From Nocardioides jiangxiensis (GTDB taxonomy: Bacteria; Actinomycetota; Actinomycetes; Propionibacteriales; Nocardioidaceae), in the NCBI RefSeq assembly GCF_030580915.1, contig NZ_JAUQTA010000001.1:186001-250000 (forward strand): a DNA stretch of 64,000 nt. The letters run 5' to 3'. Both the position numbers and the translations under genes were made by a program. Shown here piece by piece: positions 45,430-62,940 of the stretch. The notes below the pieces were generated by a model. The model saw only the letters and a list, made by a program, of their open reading frames with translations, was not told the DNA's origin and did no database searches. The first letter of the stretch is position 1; each line of letters opens with the position of its first letter.

Positions 45430-45516
45430 GCCGCGCTGGACTCTCACAACTGAATTGACCGTCTGATCGACAGCGTTGTCGACTCGCACCGATATCCCGA
45501 AGGGAGGCCGCACACG

Positions 45517-46260
45517 ATGGCTGCTCCTGCACTGGTTGCCCTGGCTCACGGTTCCCGTGACCCGCGGTCGGCCGCGACGATCAACGCCCTCGTGGCAGAG
45601 GTCCGGGCCATGCGCCCCGACCTGCGCATCGAGGCTGCGTTCCTTGACCTGTCGCGTCCGTCGTTCTCCACGGTGGTGGACCGTCTGGTGAAGGCCGGTT
45701 TCGACGAGATCGTCGTCGTACCGCTGCTTCTCTCGGACGCGTTCCATGCCAAGATCGACGTGCCCTCGGCCGTCGCGGAGCAGGCCGCTCGCCACGAGGG
45801 CCTGCAGATCCGCGCGACCGCGATCCTCGGTCACGAGATGTCCTTCCTCGAGGTCCTCGACCAGCGCCTCCGCGAGGCCCTGTCCGCGGCCCGATGTCGC
45901 GAGCTGGACGCCCTCGTCCTCGCCGCGGCCGGCTCCTCCGACCCGCTCGCCAACCAGGCCGTGGCCAGGCTCGCCCGGGTCTGGGGCGCGCACCACAAGC
46001 TGCCGGTCAAGGCCGCCTACGCCTCCACCGCTCCGCCGGCCACCGGCGAGGCCGTGCGCGCGTTCCGCAACGAGGGTCGGCGCCACATCGCCGTCGCATC
46101 GCTCTTCCTGGCTCCCGGCTCGCTGATCGACCGGGCCTCCGAGCTCGCCCTCGAAGCCGGCGCCGTCGCCGTCTCCGAGCCGCTCGGCGCCCACCCGGAG
46201 CTGGCCCGCACCATCCTCGCCCGGTACGCCGTCGGCGCCGTCGAGCTCGTACCGGTCTGA
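45517..46260 (+). CDS. Sirohydrochlorin chelatase (CbiX/SirB-like)
   Basis: A 247-residue chelatase with two similar halves. The N-terminal half starts ALVALAHGSRDPRS, with the metal-binding histidine; the second half has LVLAAAGSSDPLANQAVARLARV and SEPLGAHPELARTIL. It inserts Fe2+ into sirohydrochlorin to give siroheme, the cofactor of the sulfite reductase in the same operon; insertion of cobalt cannot be excluded. AAGGGAGG lies about ten bases upstream of the ATG. The gene is followed within 13 bases by the 22-bp repeat array and a strong hairpin. Confidence 0.9.
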   Translation: MAAPALVALAHGSRDPRSAATINALVAEVRAMRPDLRIEAAFLDLSRPSFSTVVDRLVKAGFDEIVVVPLLLSDAFHAKIDVPSAVAEQAARHEGLQIRATAILGHEMSFLEVLDQRLREALSAARCRELDALVLAAAGSSDPLANQAVARLARVWGAHHKLPVKAAYASTAPPATGEAVRAFRNEGRRHIAVASLFLAPGSLIDRASELALEAGAVAVSEPLGAHPELARTILARYAVGAVELVPV

Positions 46261-46272
46261 CCGACCCTCCCT

Positions 46273-46337
46273 CGCCGAGACGGGGCCCGTGCCGCGCCGA
46301 GACGGGGCTTGTGCGACATCGAAACGGGGCTCGTGCT
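46273..46337. repeat. Tandem 22-bp repeat array (3 direct units) at the 3' end of the chelatase gene
   Basis: Units start at 46273, 46295 and 46317 with a 22-base period. The core CGAGACGGGGCYYGTGC is seen in the first two and CGAAACGGGGCTCGTGC in the third. These are the reverse complement of the family seen at 48375 and 62542. Confidence 0.85.
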
Positions 46338-46356
46338 GTGCACGAGCCCCGTTTCG
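46320..46356. terminator. Long hairpin made from a repeat unit and its inverted copy
   Basis: Perfect 17-bp stem CGAAACGGGGCTCGTGC / GCACGAGCCCCGTTTCG with a 3-base loop. It lies between the convergent chelatase and DUF3037 stop codons and is followed on the plus strand by TCGTCGTATCGG, so no U-tract. Likely bidirectional terminator. Confidence 0.8.
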
Positions 46357-46365
46357 TCGTATCGG

Positions 46366-46749
46366 CTAACCGACGAAGCGCTGGAGCAAGTGCTCGAGCT
46401 CGCGCTTCGGGTCGGCGGTGACACCGCCGTGCACCGGACTCGGCTGGAGGACGGTGCTACGCGGGGCCTTCACGAACCCGAACCGGGTGCCGAGGTCCCC
46501 GCGACCCGCAGCGCCCACGGCCGGGTCGCCCTCGCAGATGCCCTCGACATACGCCAGGGCGTCGCAGACGCGGCCCACGTCCAGCGTCGGCGCGAGCGCC
46601 TGCAGGCGGGCGGTGTCGCAGCTCCATGCCGCCGCGAGAAACTTCTCCTCCTGGCAGTAGACGACGACGCCCACGTTGACGAACTCCTCCCGCTCCACGC
46701 GCGGGACGCAGCGGAGCACGACGTACTGGTAGGGGTGGCGGACCGTCAT
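46366..46749 (-). CDS. DUF3037 domain protein
   Basis: A 127-residue soluble protein with the DUF3037 core: YQYVVLRCVPRVEREEFVNVGVVVYCQEEKFLAA near residues 7-40, an ALAPTLDVGRVCDALAYVEGIC helix, and a C-terminal RELEHLLQRFVG. The family has no known biochemical role, but its genes are commonly found beside HipA-like kinases. Here the ATG overlaps the stop of the HipA-like gene (ATGA). This tight coupling points to a partner role, such as antitoxin, adaptor or substrate of the kinase, all unproven. Confidence 0.85.
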   Translation of the reverse strand: MTVRHPYQYVVLRCVPRVEREEFVNVGVVVYCQEEKFLAAAWSCDTARLQALAPTLDVGRVCDALAYVEGICEGDPAVGAAGRGDLGTRFGFVKAPRSTVLQPSPVHGGVTADPKRELEHLLQRFVG

Positions 46750-47513
46750 CGGGCGACCGCCTCCCACCACGCCGTCGCCTGAAGGCGTGCATCGAGGAAG
46801 TCGACGTAGGCAGCACGCACCGCGGCTGCAGACTCCGCACCGGGCACCGGTTCCAGCCACGCGTCGGGTACGTCGGCGAGGATCGCCTCGAAGACTCCGC
46901 GGTCGAGGCAACCACGGGCGCGACGGTCGATGGCCTCCAGGTCGTCTGCCTTGGCCGCCTCGAGCAGCACGTGGTCGTCGGCGTTCCAGGCCAGAGCGGC
47001 GAAGCGTGCAGGATCGCCGACTCCCCCGCCCCAGCCGTGATGGAAGTAGAGGGACGCGCCGTGGTCGATGACCCAGAGGTCTCCGTGCCAGAGCAGGAGG
47101 TTGGGGTTGCGCCAGGAGCGGTCGACGTTCGCGATGAAGGCATCGAGCCAGAGCACCGTGCCGGCAACGCCGTCGGGGACGGCGGAGGTGCCGTCGAAGC
47201 CGAACGAGCCGGGCAGGAAGTCGACGCCCAGGTTGAGCCCCACGCTCGCTCGGAGCAGGTCCTGGACCTCCTCGTCCGCCTCGTACCGAGCGAGCTCCTC
47301 GCTGAGCTCGAGGGCGACGAGTCGCGGAGTCTGCAGGCCCAGCCGGGTCGCCAGGCCGCTCGCGATCGTCTCGGCGACGAGCACCCGGAGCCCCTGCCCC
47401 GCGCCGCGGAACTTGCACACGTAGGTGCCGAGGTCATCAGCCTCGACCAGGCCGGGAAGCGAACCACCCTCGCGCAGCGGGGCGATGTAGCGGGTGACGG
47501 AGACCGTCTGCAT
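46746..47513 (-). CDS. HipA-like kinase
   Basis: A 255-residue protein of the HipA-like kinase fold. The N-terminal half has YVCKFRGAGQGLRVLVAETIASGLATRLGL, a nucleotide-binding/lysine and helix-C region. The catalytic loop region is WLDAFIANVDRSWRNPNLLLWHGDLWVIDHGASLYFHH near residues 120-160, with D, N and the IDHG metal site. It is shorter than the 440-residue E. coli HipA and lacks the N-subdomain. Its target is unknown; HipA itself phosphorylates GltX and causes persistence. No HipB-like antitoxin is seen, but DUF3037 follows immediately. ATG at 47513 overlaps the PPK2 stop (TGATG), so a GTG three bases earlier is not preferred. Confidence 0.82.
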   Translation of the reverse strand: MQTVSVTRYIAPLREGGSLPGLVEADDLGTYVCKFRGAGQGLRVLVAETIASGLATRLGLQTPRLVALELSEELARYEADEEVQDLLRASVGLNLGVDFLPGSFGFDGTSAVPDGVAGTVLWLDAFIANVDRSWRNPNLLLWHGDLWVIDHGASLYFHHGWGGGVGDPARFAALAWNADDHVLLEAAKADDLEAIDRRARGCLDRGVFEAILADVPDAWLEPVPGAESAAAVRAAYVDFLDARLQATAWWEAVAR

Positions 47514-48355
47514 CACTGGACCGGCACCTCGTCACGCAGGCGCTGCTTCTCGTGCTCGACGTCGAAGTCTGCAGGCGGCCACGTCAGGTCGAGACCGCGC
47601 AGTGCCTCGAGCAGCAGATGGCCGATGGCCAGGTTGCGGTACCACTTGTGGTCGCTGGGCACCACGTACCACGGTGCAGCGTCGGTGTTGGTCCGCTCGA
47701 GCGCGATCTCGTAGGCCTCGCGGTAAGACGCCCACCGGGCACGCTCGTCGATGTCGCCCGGGTTGAACTTCCAATGCTTCGCCGGGTCGTCGAGACGTGC
47801 GAGCAGCCGCTCCTTCTGCTCCGCCGCCGAGATGTGGAGCATGCACTTGACGATCGTCGTGCCGCCGTCGGCGATCCGCTTCTCGAAGTCGTTGATCGCA
47901 CCGTAGCGACGCTCGATCTCGTCGGCGGGCGCCAGGTCGCGGACCCGACCGATGAGGACGTCCTCATACTGCGAGCGGTCGAAGACACCGATGATGCCTG
48001 CGGGAGCCAGCGCCTTCTCGATCCGCCACAGGAAGTCGTGGGCCCGCTCCTCCTCGGTCGGAGCCTTGAAGCTGGTCACCTTCACACCGGCCGGGCTGAC
48101 CAGGCCGACGGTGTGCTCGAGGATGCCGCCCTTGCCGGAGGTGTCCATCCCCTGGAGCACCAGCAGCACGCTGCGGCCTCCGGCCCTGTTGGCGTAGAGC
48201 CGCTCCTGCAGCTCGGCGAGCTCGGGACCGAGGCCCTCCAGCGCCGCTTCGGCCTCCTCCTTCCCCCCGTCGTACGCCGGGGTGCCGGCCGGGTCGATCG
48301 CCGTCAGGTCGACCGGACCGACGGGGAGCCGAAGTGCGCTCACGAAGGACGTCAT
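47513..48355 (-). CDS. Polyphosphate kinase 2 family protein (polyP:nucleotide phosphotransferase)
   Basis: A 280-residue PPK2. It carries Walker A GMDTSGKGG at residues 69-77, Walker B VFDRSQYEDVLIGRVRDL at about 124-141 and the lid/arginine region HWKFNPGDIDERARW near 200-214. PPK2 enzymes make or use polyphosphate to phosphorylate ADP/GDP or AMP. This single-domain form could be class I (NDP) or III; the sequence does not decide. The start at 48355 (ATG after a TATGGT -10-like box) is preferred to the in-frame start at 48382, which lies inside the repeats. Its stop is fused with the HipA-like start. Confidence 0.93.
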   Translation of the reverse strand: MTSFVSALRLPVGPVDLTAIDPAGTPAYDGGKEEAEAALEGLGPELAELQERLYANRAGGRSVLLVLQGMDTSGKGGILEHTVGLVSPAGVKVTSFKAPTEEERAHDFLWRIEKALAPAGIIGVFDRSQYEDVLIGRVRDLAPADEIERRYGAINDFEKRIADGGTTIVKCMLHISAAEQKERLLARLDDPAKHWKFNPGDIDERARWASYREAYEIALERTNTDAAPWYVVPSDHKWYRNLAIGHLLLEALRGLDLTWPPADFDVEHEKQRLRDEVPVQ

Positions 48356-48361
48356 GGCAGA

Positions 48362-48367
48362 ACCATA
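48362..48367 (-). promoter_or_regulatory. Candidate -10 box for the PPK2-HipA-DUF3037 genes
   Basis: TATGGT on the minus strand, six bases before the PPK2 ATG at 48355. The corresponding -35 region would fall inside the 22-bp repeats (48375-48418), which contain no good -35. Confidence 0.4.
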
Positions 48368-48374
48368 GAGGGCA

Positions 48375-48418
48375 CGGCACAAGCCCCGTCTCGGCGCGGC
48401 ACAAGCCCCGTCTCGGCG
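48375..48418. repeat. Tandem 22-bp repeat, two identical units
   Basis: Two exact copies (48375-48396 and 48397-48418). Each unit begins CGGCACAAGCC and ends CCGTCTCGGCG. The array ends exactly at the recX stop codon on the minus strand and sits just upstream of the PPK2 promoter. Confidence 0.9.
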
Positions 48419-49060
48419 TCAGTCGGGGGGCTCGACGTCGTCGTCGGCGAGCGCACCGAGCTCCTCGCGCACGACCGCGAAGGCGACCCCGGGACCGTGG
48501 CCCTTGCGCGCCAGCATCCCGACCAGGCGGCGGGTGGCCACCTCGGGAGCGAGGCCACGCATGGAGCGGAGCTTGCGCTGCACCAGCCTGCGGGCCACCT
48601 CACGCTCGTCCTCGGGGTCGATCTCGTCGAGCGCCTCGCGCGCCACCTCGTCGTCGATGCCCTTGCGGCGCAGCTCCTGGGCGAGGGCACGCGAGGCCAG
48701 CCCCTTGCCGGGCTGGCGCGAGGCGATCCACTGGCGGGCGAAGGCCGCGTCGTCGACGAGTCCGACTTCCTCGAAACGGTCCAGCAGCCGGGTCGCGATC
48801 GCCTTCGGCACGTCCTTGGCATCGAGCTTCTTCTGCAGCTCCGCCCGTGAGCGCGCCTGGCCCGTGAGCTGGTCGAGCAGGATCTTGCGGGCCACCGCCT
48901 CGTGGTCGGCCTCGGGCCCCAGGGCCTCGAGGTCCTCAGGCGGCATCGCGTCCGCGGCGGAGGCGAAGTCCGGCGGCGGACCTGCTTCACCGAGCCACGC
49001 GGCCACCCCGGCGTGCACGTCGCCGTGCCACGCCGGAGCGGCTGCAGTGGGGTCAGACAT
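48419..49060 (-). CDS. recX: Regulatory protein RecX
   Basis: A 213-residue protein that inhibits RecA filament activity. The RecX core lies at about 60-205, with ARKILLDQLTGQARSRAELQKKL, VGLVDDAAFARQWIASRQPGKGLASRALAQELRRKGI, and a third helical repeat after about 155. The N-terminal 55 residues are an acidic, Ala/Pro-rich extension. The ATG at 49060 overlaps the recA stop (TGATG). The pair recA-recX is the standard order. Confidence 0.95.
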   Translation of the reverse strand: MSDPTAAAPAWHGDVHAGVAAWLGEAGPPPDFASAADAMPPEDLEALGPEADHEAVARKILLDQLTGQARSRAELQKKLDAKDVPKAIATRLLDRFEEVGLVDDAAFARQWIASRQPGKGLASRALAQELRRKGIDDEVAREALDEIDPEDEREVARRLVQRKLRSMRGLAPEVATRRLVGMLARKGHGPGVAFAVVREELGALADDDVEPPD

Positions 49061-61103: not shown

Positions 61104-61490
61104 ATGGAACCCACCGTCACCCCCGCCGAGTACGCCGCCCTCCGCGCCGCCGTGGACTGGCCGGTCTGCCCGCCGGCGGAGGCCGAGGCGGCCTTGCAGC
61201 GGTCGCTGGCGGTCGCCATCGCCCGCAACGCCGACGGTCGCCTGGTCGGCCTGGCCCGCGCGGTCGGTGACGGCTTCTACGTGGTGGTCGTCGACGTCAT
61301 CGTCGACCCCCGCGAGCAGGACCAGGGCATCGCGCACCGCCTCCTGACCGACCTGCTCGCCACGCAACCGGTGCGCGCCGCAGGCCACCTGACCCTCTTC
61401 GCAGCTCCGGAGGCGGTCGGCCTCTACGAGGAGCTCGGCTTCCGTGAGGAGAAGGGCGTCTACATGGTCCGGCCCACCCCGGACGCGTGA
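61104..61490 (+). CDS. GNAT family N-acetyltransferase
   Basis: A 128-residue acetyltransferase. The acetyl-CoA binding element is VDVIVDPREQDQGIAHRLLTDLL near residues 61-83, with QDQGI in the R/Q-x-x-G-x-G/A place, and the C-terminal strand-helix is YEELGFREEKGVYMVRP. N-terminal residues 1-45 carry a typical GNAT start (VTPAEYAALRAAVDWPV). No acceptor can be named. The stop is 62 bases before the pseudouridine synthase start. Confidence 0.85.
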   Translation: MEPTVTPAEYAALRAAVDWPVCPPAEAEAALQRSLAVAIARNADGRLVGLARAVGDGFYVVVVDVIVDPREQDQGIAHRLLTDLLATQPVRAAGHLTLFAAPEAVGLYEELGFREEKGVYMVRPTPDA

Positions 61491-61540
61491 CCCCGGGCGG
61501 CGGCCGCCACCCGGATGCCGTCCGCGGGCACCTCCACACC

Positions 61541-61546
61541 TACGAT
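61541..61546 (+). promoter_or_regulatory. Candidate -10 box of the pseudouridine synthase gene (leaderless type)
   Basis: TACGAT, six bases before the GTG at 61553; it decides the start, which otherwise could be 66 bases upstream. Confidence 0.45.
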
Positions 61547-61552
61547 CTGCGC

Positions 61553-62536
61553 GTGCCTCCCCCGTCGCCCCTGCCGCCGCGCCATGGGCTCAGCGCAGCA
61601 TGGGTCCGCACGCCTGCGGCCGGCACAGCCCCCGAGCACGAGGGCACGATGCGCGACTGGCTCCGGCACCGCCTGCCGCCTCGCAACCTCGAGGCCACGG
61701 GCGTGCACGCGCTGGCGGAGCTCGCCGTTCCGCTCGGCGACGGACAGCAGCCGAGCGTCGACGTCGACGCCTTCCTCGCGGCGGGACGCTTCGTCTGGCA
61801 GGACGGCGCTCCCGTGCGCGCGGACGATCCCTACCGGCCGCACACGTTCATGTGGTTCCACCGGGACCTGCGCGAGGAGCCGGTGGTACCCGGCGAGCTG
61901 ACCCTCCTGCACCGCGATGAGCGGATCGTCGTCGTGGACAAGCCTGCCTTCCTCTCGACGATCCCGCGCGGCAGCCACGTCGTCCAGAGCGTCGTCGTCC
62001 GCGCCCGGGAGGAGCTCGGTCTTCCCGAGCTCTCCCCTGCCCACCGCCTCGACAGGGTCACCTCCGGAGTGCTCATGCTGACGGCCGCGAAGCAGTGGCG
62101 CGGCGCCTACCAGGGCGTCTTCGAGGACGGCACGGCGAGGAAGGTCTACCGCGCCGTCGCGCCGTACGACCCCGCGCGCGAGCAGCCGACCTGGGTGCGC
62201 AACCACCTCCAGAAGCCACGGGGTCAGTGGCAGGGCGAGGTGGTGCCGAACGCGCCCGTCAACGCGGAGACGCTCGTGGAGCTCGAGGCCCGCCTCGACG
62301 GTGACCGCGCGATCTACCGGCTCACACCGCTGACGGGGCGCACGCACCAGCTCCGGATGCACCTGCACGGACTGGGCATCCCGATCGAGGGAGATCCCCT
62401 CTACCCGGTCGCCACCGGCGTCAGCGTCGACGACTTCAGCACGCCGCTCCAGCTGCTCGCGAGCGAGCTCGCGTTCACCGACCCGGTCGACGGCACGGAG
62501 CGCTCGTTCAGGAGCACCAAGGTGCTGCCCCTCTGA
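61553..62536 (+). CDS. RluA-type pseudouridine synthase
   Basis: A 327-residue RNA pseudouridine synthase of the RluA group. The catalytic Asp is in SPAHRLDRVTSGVLML near residues 160-175. Other family signatures are VVVDKPAFLSTIPRGSH near 130, TGRTHQLRMHLHGLGIPIEGDPLYP near 262-286 and the SELAFTDPV C-terminus. The N-terminal 110 residues replace the S4 domain. The target RNA is unknown. GTG at 61553 follows a -10-like box. Its stop lies 5 bases before a 22-bp repeat array. Confidence 0.9.
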   Translation: MPPPSPLPPRHGLSAAWVRTPAAGTAPEHEGTMRDWLRHRLPPRNLEATGVHALAELAVPLGDGQQPSVDVDAFLAAGRFVWQDGAPVRADDPYRPHTFMWFHRDLREEPVVPGELTLLHRDERIVVVDKPAFLSTIPRGSHVVQSVVVRAREELGLPELSPAHRLDRVTSGVLMLTAAKQWRGAYQGVFEDGTARKVYRAVAPYDPAREQPTWVRNHLQKPRGQWQGEVVPNAPVNAETLVELEARLDGDRAIYRLTPLTGRTHQLRMHLHGLGIPIEGDPLYPVATGVSVDDFSTPLQLLASELAFTDPVDGTERSFRSTKVLPL

Positions 62537-62541
62537 TCACC

Positions 62542-62629
62542 CGGCACACGCCTCGTCTCGACGCGGCACACGCCTCGTCTCGACGCGGCACACGCCTCGT
62601 CTCGGCGCGGCACCCGCCTCGTCTCGGCG
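62542..62629. repeat. Tandem 22-bp repeat array (4 units)
   Basis: Four units at 62542, 62564, 62586 and 62608. Each unit begins CGGCACACGCC (the last CGGCACCCGCC) and continues TCGTCTCGRCG. It is the same family as at 48375 with two changed positions. It lies between convergent genes, 5 bases after one stop and 11 bases before the other. Confidence 0.9.
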
Positions 62630-62640
62630 CGGAAGGACCG

Positions 62641-62940
62641 TCAGGCAGCAGACGACGCGGCGGTGGCGTCGACACGGACGGGCAGCGGGATGGGAGCCAG
62701 TGCGGCTTCCTCGAGCGCGACCTGGTCGGAGACCTCGCGGATCACCTGCGACAGGGTCAGGTCCATCGCGTTGCACAGCGACGCCAGCAGCTCCGAGGAG
62801 GCTTCCTTCTGGCCGCGCTCGATCTCGGAGATGTAGCCCAGCGACACGCGGGCACCGGCGGAGACCTCGCGCAGCGTCATGCCGCGCTGCACGCGCTGGT
62901 GACGGAGCACGTCGCCGAGCACTCGACGGAACAGCACCAT
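62641..62940 (-). CDS. clgR: ClgR-like XRE-family transcriptional regulator
   Basis: A 99-residue helix-turn-helix protein. Residues 6-65 are the XRE domain (LGDVLRHQRVQRGMTLREVSAGARVSLGYISEIERGQKEASSELL), a close match to ClgR, which activates clp protease and DNA-repair or stress genes in actinobacteria. It ends in ATAASSAA; a C-terminal Ala-Ala is used as a Clp degradation signal in known ClgR proteins, so instability is likely but inferred. Its place beside cinA and pgsA is conserved. GGAGAT lies just before the ATG at 62940. Confidence 0.9.
   Translation of the reverse strand: MVLFRRVLGDVLRHQRVQRGMTLREVSAGARVSLGYISEIERGQKEASSELLASLCNAMDLTLSQVIREVSDQVALEEAALAPIPLPVRVDATAASSAA

Follow-up and report, generated by a model that had tools for sequence, protein, structure and literature searches.

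Directional, genome-specific repeat arrays behind stop codons in Nocardioides jiangxiensis and other Nocardioidaceae

The repeats that a first-pass annotation noticed at three gene ends of a 64,000-nt stretch of the Nocardioides jiangxiensis genome (G000; the stretch is called the window throughout) are the edge of a larger phenomenon. Directional arrays of a short unit are dispersed over this genome, lie in sense orientation directly behind stop codons, conserve a 17-base core more strongly than the 5-base spacer, and recur with other core sequences in other members of the family. Tentatively, and with a confidence that stops a little short of even, we interpret them as genome-specific site arrays at gene 3′ ends, which would be read by a putative factor and act in termination or in the fate of the 3′ end.

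The window holds the following units:
46276-46292, 46298-46314 and 46320-46336, plus strand: three direct cores, period 22
CGCGC and GACAT, plus strand: the spacers of the 46276-46336 array, 5 nt each
46340-46356, minus strand: inverted unit, perfect complement of 46320-46336
48376-48415, minus strand: two direct units, 3 nt past the stop of recX (48419-49060, minus strand) and before the PPK2 gene
62543-62626, minus strand: four direct units, in sense, 14 nt past the stop of an HTH gene (62641-62940, minus strand)

The first core of the 46276-46336 array begins 15 nt past the stop of a CbiX-like chelatase gene (45517-46260, plus strand), and the inverted unit lies 9 nt from the stop of a convergent DUF3037 gene (46366-46749, minus strand). 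The convergent partner at the 62543-62626 array is a pseudouridine-synthase-like gene (61487-62536). The annotation had described units with a 22-base period at 46.3 kb, the last of them forming a perfect 17-bp hairpin with an inverted copy between the chelatase and DUF3037 stops. We find the same three direct cores and inverted copy, and the arms 46320-46336 and 46340-46356 (17 nt each) are 100% complementary around a 3-nt loop. Its further copies at 48375 and 62542 were recovered as the arrays of two and four units on the minus strand. Its statement that the element always sits just after stop codons is true of the three window arrays (15, 3 and 14 nt); elsewhere it describes most runs, not all. 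An 18-base pattern, allowed up to three mismatches, gave 19 matches in the window; 100 shuffles averaged 9.3 and never reached that number. Ten of these had at most two mismatches and all ten fall inside the three arrays, while the other nine, with three mismatches each, lie outside them. The window has 34 intergenic gaps that are 45 nt or longer. In a scan of these for any period from 14 to 40, the three arrays and no other gap exceeded the 99% shuffle level, each of them at lag 22; by class, two of five convergent, one of 22 tandem and none of seven divergent gaps were flagged.

With at most one mismatch, the window's version of the unit occurs 166 times in G000, compared with one match to the reversed pattern, which served as the control in the copy counts, so the dispersed family proposed from the three loci does extend beyond them. 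Nocardioides jejuensis (G137) has 87 copies vs 0 for the reversed pattern, and the other 145 genomes have 0 to 8. Over 215 genomes of the genus, a 22-base pattern that tolerated two mismatches at most gave 144 vs 0 in G000, 64 vs 2 in N. jejuensis and at most 4 in the rest. In the window and the fetched stretches G000 has 52 clusters, and the 43 with two or more units are scattered over 3.0 Mb. Both orientations are present in 34 of these 43 arrays, 33 of them plus-then-minus and one plus-minus-plus; none is only minus-then-plus. Some arrays are long and nearly identical (10 minus units at C2:88809-89024; 11 plus units at C1:1789231-1789418), and several have a period of 17, not 22. A replichore strand bias of the G000 copies was apparent among the matches listed and was removed by further minus-strand matches. 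In the N. jejuensis draft, eight contigs end inside an array or no more than about 50 nt from one, as though the assembly had been broken by the repeats:
C5, C14, C20, C28, C34, C37, C41 and C50 (L130, L138, L140, L146 and L150-L153), N. jejuensis: contigs with an array at the end

A plasmid and a viral origin were both considered and rejected, as the array at 62540-62632 had no match in a plasmid collection and a tandem pattern had 0 matches in viral contigs. An Rfam search of 45500-49000 returned nothing at the gathering score, the best sub-threshold hit having an E value of 0.046. Single matches to a tandem pattern of the window's version in a planctomycete MAG, a deltaproteobacterial MAG, Streptomyces wedmorensis and a Cellulomonas (L035, L038, L039, L054) are probably chance or coding repeats.

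Cores from different genomes share a common frame, a 17-base CGAR-N8-YSTKS followed by a 5-base spacer, with a middle that differs between genomes. A pattern derived from units of G003, G103 and G132 matched 40 times in G103 (vs 1 for the reversed pattern), 19 times in G105 (vs 0), 8 times in G003 (vs 0; five of the matches are one array) and 7 times in G132 (vs 0). The unit of G154 gave 23 vs 1 in its own genome, where two arrays account for 13 of the matches; six other genomes gave 3 to 5 vs 0 to 3. We then searched 391 genomes of the order with a tandem CGAR-N8-YSTKS pattern whose middle was free and whose period was fixed at 22. At least 10 matches were found in 19 genomes, and 0 to 9 in the other 372. 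Fifteen of the 19 belong to the genus, ranging from 11 vs 1 and 13 vs 3 up to 146 vs 0; three belong to other genera of the family (21, 46 and 47, each vs 0), and only G381, a doubtful case at 18 vs 4, lies outside it. G104, which is 97% identical at CbiX, is nevertheless at background level for the window's version, and together with the 372 genomes below 10 frame matches this indicates that the arrays are dispensable, which counts against our reading.

The middle 8 bases agree at 0.57-0.81 between arrays of one genome, a similarity that is inflated for G000, G137, G003, G154, G105 and most of G103, since their stretches were fetched via a genome-specific core, and at 0.40 between genomes. 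For G002, G097, G138, G316, G339, G392, G152 and G100, stretches were instead chosen from the frame-pattern matches listed, with the middle left free. G152 and G100 (one run each) were omitted from the hairpin, middle-8, spacer-length and core-spacer counts; the remaining six free-middle genomes alone gave 0.57-0.78 within a genome. That each genome has one main core version suggests recognition in trans. By eye, GTACGAC or TCGTACGAC stands directly behind arrays in G392, G002 and G316 (L261, L265-L267, L288).

Placement was assessed for 140 directional runs from 14 genomes. Genes were taken from a codon-usage caller trained on the window, which missed some genes, so that a few runs scored as antisense are really in sense. 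The upstream neighbour is a same-strand gene in 116 of the 140 runs (84 convergent, 26 tandem, 6 without a called downstream gene), which bears out the suggested tie to gene 3′ ends, often convergent ones. The remaining runs comprise 12 antisense between two genes, five divergent, five inside called genes and two without a called upstream gene; several of the antisense or divergent runs are real exceptions. The distance from the stop codon to the first unit has a median of 6 nt and is at most 20 nt in 96 of the 116 runs. For convergent runs the stop of the run's own gene is the nearer one in 71 of 84 cases, and in 47 of 57 when no opposite run lies within 400 nt (p 7.5e-7). Ends that carry an array are convergent by 73 to 22, the corresponding figures being 153 to 268 for array-free ends of these stretches with gaps of 50-600 nt (odds ratio 5.8, p 6e-13). 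Where the genes are in tandem, sense runs outnumber antisense ones only modestly (26 to 12, p 0.034), and this counts against site arrays. The eight free-middle genomes contributed 40 runs, of which 39 are outside called genes, 29 have a same-strand upstream gene and 26 start at most 30 nt past its stop. The first unit sometimes begins with TGAG rather than CGAG, and the repeat then appears to provide the stop codon of the gene (L096 near 3987; L290 near 3014).

A repeat that is merely tolerated could also collect at such places. It would copy itself by some route, grow by slippage and be homogenized by recombination, and it would persist behind stops, above all between convergent genes, where insertions harm least. 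The differences between close relatives described below, the prominence of the window's version in just two of 215 genomes of the genus and the long, nearly identical arrays are all in keeping with this explanation, which we nonetheless consider somewhat unlikely. A safe haven alone leaves both the sense orientation and the median start at 6 nt unexplained, as well as the recurrence of the CGAR...YSTKS frame with unrelated middles, and neither G000 nor G137 has a gene with the RAYT-type transposase domain PF01797. A neutral satellite should, moreover, conserve core and spacer to the same degree. We added 198 extra units by register alone, without the motif, requiring at least 12 of 22 bases to be identical to the neighbouring unit. 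Spacer positions of these units differ in 32-43% of cases and core positions in 4-26%, with the lowest values at positions 3, 9, 16 and 17; on average, differences amount to 0.36 in the spacer and 0.15 in the core, or 0.16 when just the middle 8 bases of the core, which the search had left free, are counted. The spacer thus differs 1.7 to 3 times as much as the core, depending on the genomes: 0.20/0.08 in G000 and G137 (where core position 13, at 0.30, is as variable as the spacer), 0.53/0.17 in G103, G003, G154 and G105, and 0.26/0.15, the weakest contrast, in the six free-middle genomes. The spacer is 5 nt long in 337 of 351 cases. The search itself fixed 138 of these, one per run; without them the figure is 199 of 213. 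A conserved core and a spacer of fixed length and rather free sequence are the pattern of a binding-site array and not of a neutral satellite. We favour site arrays over a self-spreading repeat.

Comparison of orthologous junctions indicates that arrays come and go, and that at some sites the sequence has apparently been replaced while the array stayed. The CbiX junction of other Nocardioides carries tandem or inverted repeats of other sequence. Among the best 30 matching genomes, eight had gaps below 40 nt, and 14 of the 22 tested exceeded the 95% shuffle level, with best lags of 22 (seven genomes), 21 (one), 20 (three) and 32 (three). The repeats of period 32 (L178, L180, L181) and period 20 (L170, L173, L179) are, by eye, outside the CGAR...YSTKS frame. 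Only the scans of this junction, of the pseudouridine-synthase junction and of the gaps in the window and in G154 were blind to the period. The background rate of the scan is shown by two 20-kb stretches of G154 selected without regard to arrays: of their 20 gaps, two were flagged, both divergent and with lags of 24 and 19. At the pseudouridine-synthase-like junction the gap was 40 nt or longer at 10 of 30 loci and only G000 passed; the relatives of this gene in L298 (G104) and L299 (G152) have one in-frame TAG each.

Neither N. jejuensis (29-bp gap) nor G104 (5-bp gap) has the 62543-62626 array at the corresponding junction, and it was therefore probably gained in G000. N. jejuensis also lacks the C2:86994 array of G000, the absence being clean from one stop codon to the other. 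Between recX and ppk2 both species have two units, those of N. jejuensis having, by eye, 22 nt and another core, so that a site can outlive its sequence. Sites that persist with changed sequence, here and at the CbiX junction, count in favour of site arrays. For the first-pass suggestion of a small mobile element the evidence is mixed: the 62542 array is lacking in two relatives, as such an element would predict, whereas the missing PF01797 gene in both carriers and the sequence swap at recX/ppk2 speak against it. For 27 of the 43 G000 arrays a flanking gene lies within the fetched N. jejuensis stretches, the other 16 not being judgeable. In 23 of the 27, N. jejuensis has an array no more than 250 nt from the corresponding gene end. 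Four have none, and at one of these four, L102, the gene caller ran across the array and an N. jejuensis array does lie between the same genes. The second unit version of N. jejuensis, seen by eye behind recX as two units at about 7100-7167 of L133, has the core CGAAACCCGGGTTTTGA and coexists with the main version of that genome.

The hairpin at 46.3 kb is real. As RNA, 46258-46368 folds much more stably than shuffled sequence (z -4.32), and in G000 and N. jejuensis a strong hairpin is present at all 34 examined convergent ends with an array, compared with 74 of 83 without; at tandem ends the figures are 5 of 6 and 99 of 146. That hairpins are at least as frequent at array ends as at other ends in these two genomes counts against our reading. 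The inverted pair might therefore be a functional bidirectional terminator that needs no U-tract, with direct arrays as its raw material or remains; we regard this as unlikely. It would account for the two orientations of 34 of the 43 G000 arrays and their nearly invariable plus-then-minus order, but this order is expected anyway from sense placement behind two convergent genes. Inner plus-minus pairs of G000 and G137 are perfect in 12 of 56 cases (14 of 175 for other pairs of the same arrays, 5% between loci), and their stems extend into the loop by a mean of 1.55 pairs vs 0.57 for swapped loops. Their mean identity is, however, barely above that between loci (15.0 vs 14.5 of 17). Compared with an intrinsic terminator, 46320-46356 provides the required stable hairpin and lacks the U-tract: 46357-46368, on its 3′ side, is without a run of T. 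The 62542 array is direct and forms no hairpin (62538-62640, z -0.12, no excess structure), and the 48376 array is also direct.

Arrays of other species are often direct as well, and mostly unstructured. In ten other genomes strong hairpins were found at 23 of 39 convergent ends with an array and at 56 of 70 without (p 0.025), which supports site arrays; tandem ends went in the opposite direction (11 of 16 vs 60 of 122), which counts against them. Only 3 of these 39 convergent and 4 of these 16 tandem ends have a sense run that by itself reaches -20 kcal/mol or better. The hairpin cannot thus be upheld as the purpose of the element and is instead a lineage feature laid over a directional array. 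Among array ends of the other genomes with at least 20 nt left, 15 of 43 have a strong hairpin behind the array, so that the terminator is not in every case the array itself; in G000, by eye, some arrays are situated past a separate terminator-like hairpin. Both points count against our reading. In G103 and G105 (L193, L222) the array is situated between the stop codon and the terminator-like hairpin of one gene (94% identical, 360 aa) and is therefore likely transcribed there. A small hairpin within each unit was sought by eye across the versions and rejected, as it had no common position.

The 22-base spacing is also that of the iterons of plasmid RK2. Iterons (RK2, R6K, pSC101) are described in PMC4980987 as 17-22 bp direct repeats whose cooperative binding depends on helical placement, in origins that also hold DnaA boxes. 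The direct 17-base sites found here resemble them, and the lags of 20, 21, 22 and 32 at the CbiX junction, which was not chosen for arrays, are near whole helical turns. Both points would fit iteron-like DNA sites that serve the upkeep of the chromosome (its topology, replication timing or DnaA titration) and have gathered at convergent ends, an explanation we think quite improbable. Iterons are found at one replication origin, with a Rep gene and a DUE, and the arrays at dozens of chromosomal gene ends. With regard to helical spacing, the 5-nt spacer (337 of 351, 138 imposed) has to be set beside the period-17 arrays of G000, which argue against strict phasing and so count against chromosome upkeep and against our own reading. 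Sense linkage to the upstream gene is also difficult to reconcile with upkeep. Several loops of 23-24 nt in inverted arrays (L096, L098, L113, L127, L128, L131, L154) carry TTNTCCACAGG, which we take to be DnaA-box-like. Seven of the ten TTNTCCACAGG boxes in 0.69 Mb of G000 and N. jejuensis are in or by arrays, which make up 1% of this sequence; this favours upkeep, although such boxes occur in a minority of loops only.

Neisserial DUS likewise have genome- or clade-specific dialects and inverted pairs that are associated with terminators, and they number thousands of copies, also within genes, and are bound by ComP, as stated in PMC3630211. The likeness lies in the clade-specific dialects around a constant part and in the inverted pairs at gene ends of this lineage, and self-recognition tags for DNA uptake could be imagined on this basis. 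They are highly improbable, since G000 has fewer than 200 copies net of background rather than thousands, only 5 of 140 runs are inside called genes, and the arrays are directional, tied to genes and located behind stops.

We return to site arrays at gene 3′ ends. The element would be a directional array of sequence-specific sites, in sense and directly behind the stop codon, through which a putative trans factor acts at the 3′ end of the gene. On DNA, the bound factor could form a roadblock behind the gene; alternatively it may bind RNA that becomes exposed once the ribosome reaches the stop codon, a Rho-loading array (unstructured RNA behind the stop) being one candidate for such a route. 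The outcome would be that transcription ends or that the fate of the mRNA 3′ end is fixed. Sense arrays behind convergent genes stand head to head in G000 and N. jejuensis and also form hairpins, which might give both genes a symmetrical 3′ end. A more far-reaching version, possible if doubtful, is that gene ends are marked throughout the Nocardioidaceae by a trans factor of species-changing specificity, which reads 17-base sites at 22-base spacing and whose changes cause the sites to be rewritten in concert across the genome. This would be a bacterial counterpart, at 3′ ends, of fast-evolving site-factor pairs. If the arrays are read by a factor, they would constitute a sequence-specific 3′-end system with species-specific recognition, to our knowledge different from hairpin and Rho signals. 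As selfish elements they would instead be a dispersed repeat placed unusually tightly behind stops. Either way, the CbiX-DUF3037 junction, with its repeats of different sequence in several species, offers a natural experiment. Word matching in open-licence PMC papers found no earlier description of such arrays, which is weak evidence of absence.

Among known repeats, the mycobacterial MIRUs resemble the arrays in being dispersed, orientation-linked and near stop codons; their units are longer, about 50-100 bp, and are without the 17+5 frame. REP/BIME/REPIN elements are short dispersed intergenic repeats, often between convergent or unidirectional genes, and roles in termination and at mRNA ends have been proposed for them (PMC3733652). 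The arrays share this location with GTAG- and CGTC-tagged REP/BIME, being mostly between convergent or unidirectional genes. They differ in structure: the REP unit is a palindrome of 20-40 bp, whereas the cores are non-palindromic by inspection (and 62538-62640 has the fold z of -0.12), the arrays are directional with 22-base spacing, and GTAG is absent from the 12 genome consensus cores. RAYT-driven REP was rejected, PF01797 being found in 0 of 2 carrier genomes (G000, G137) vs 5 of 14 control genomes. In Beggiatoaceae the TAACTGA direct repeats, which are heptamers, sit for the most part immediately before start codons and have one sequence across distant lineages, whereas the arrays described here lie behind stops and have genome-specific cores.
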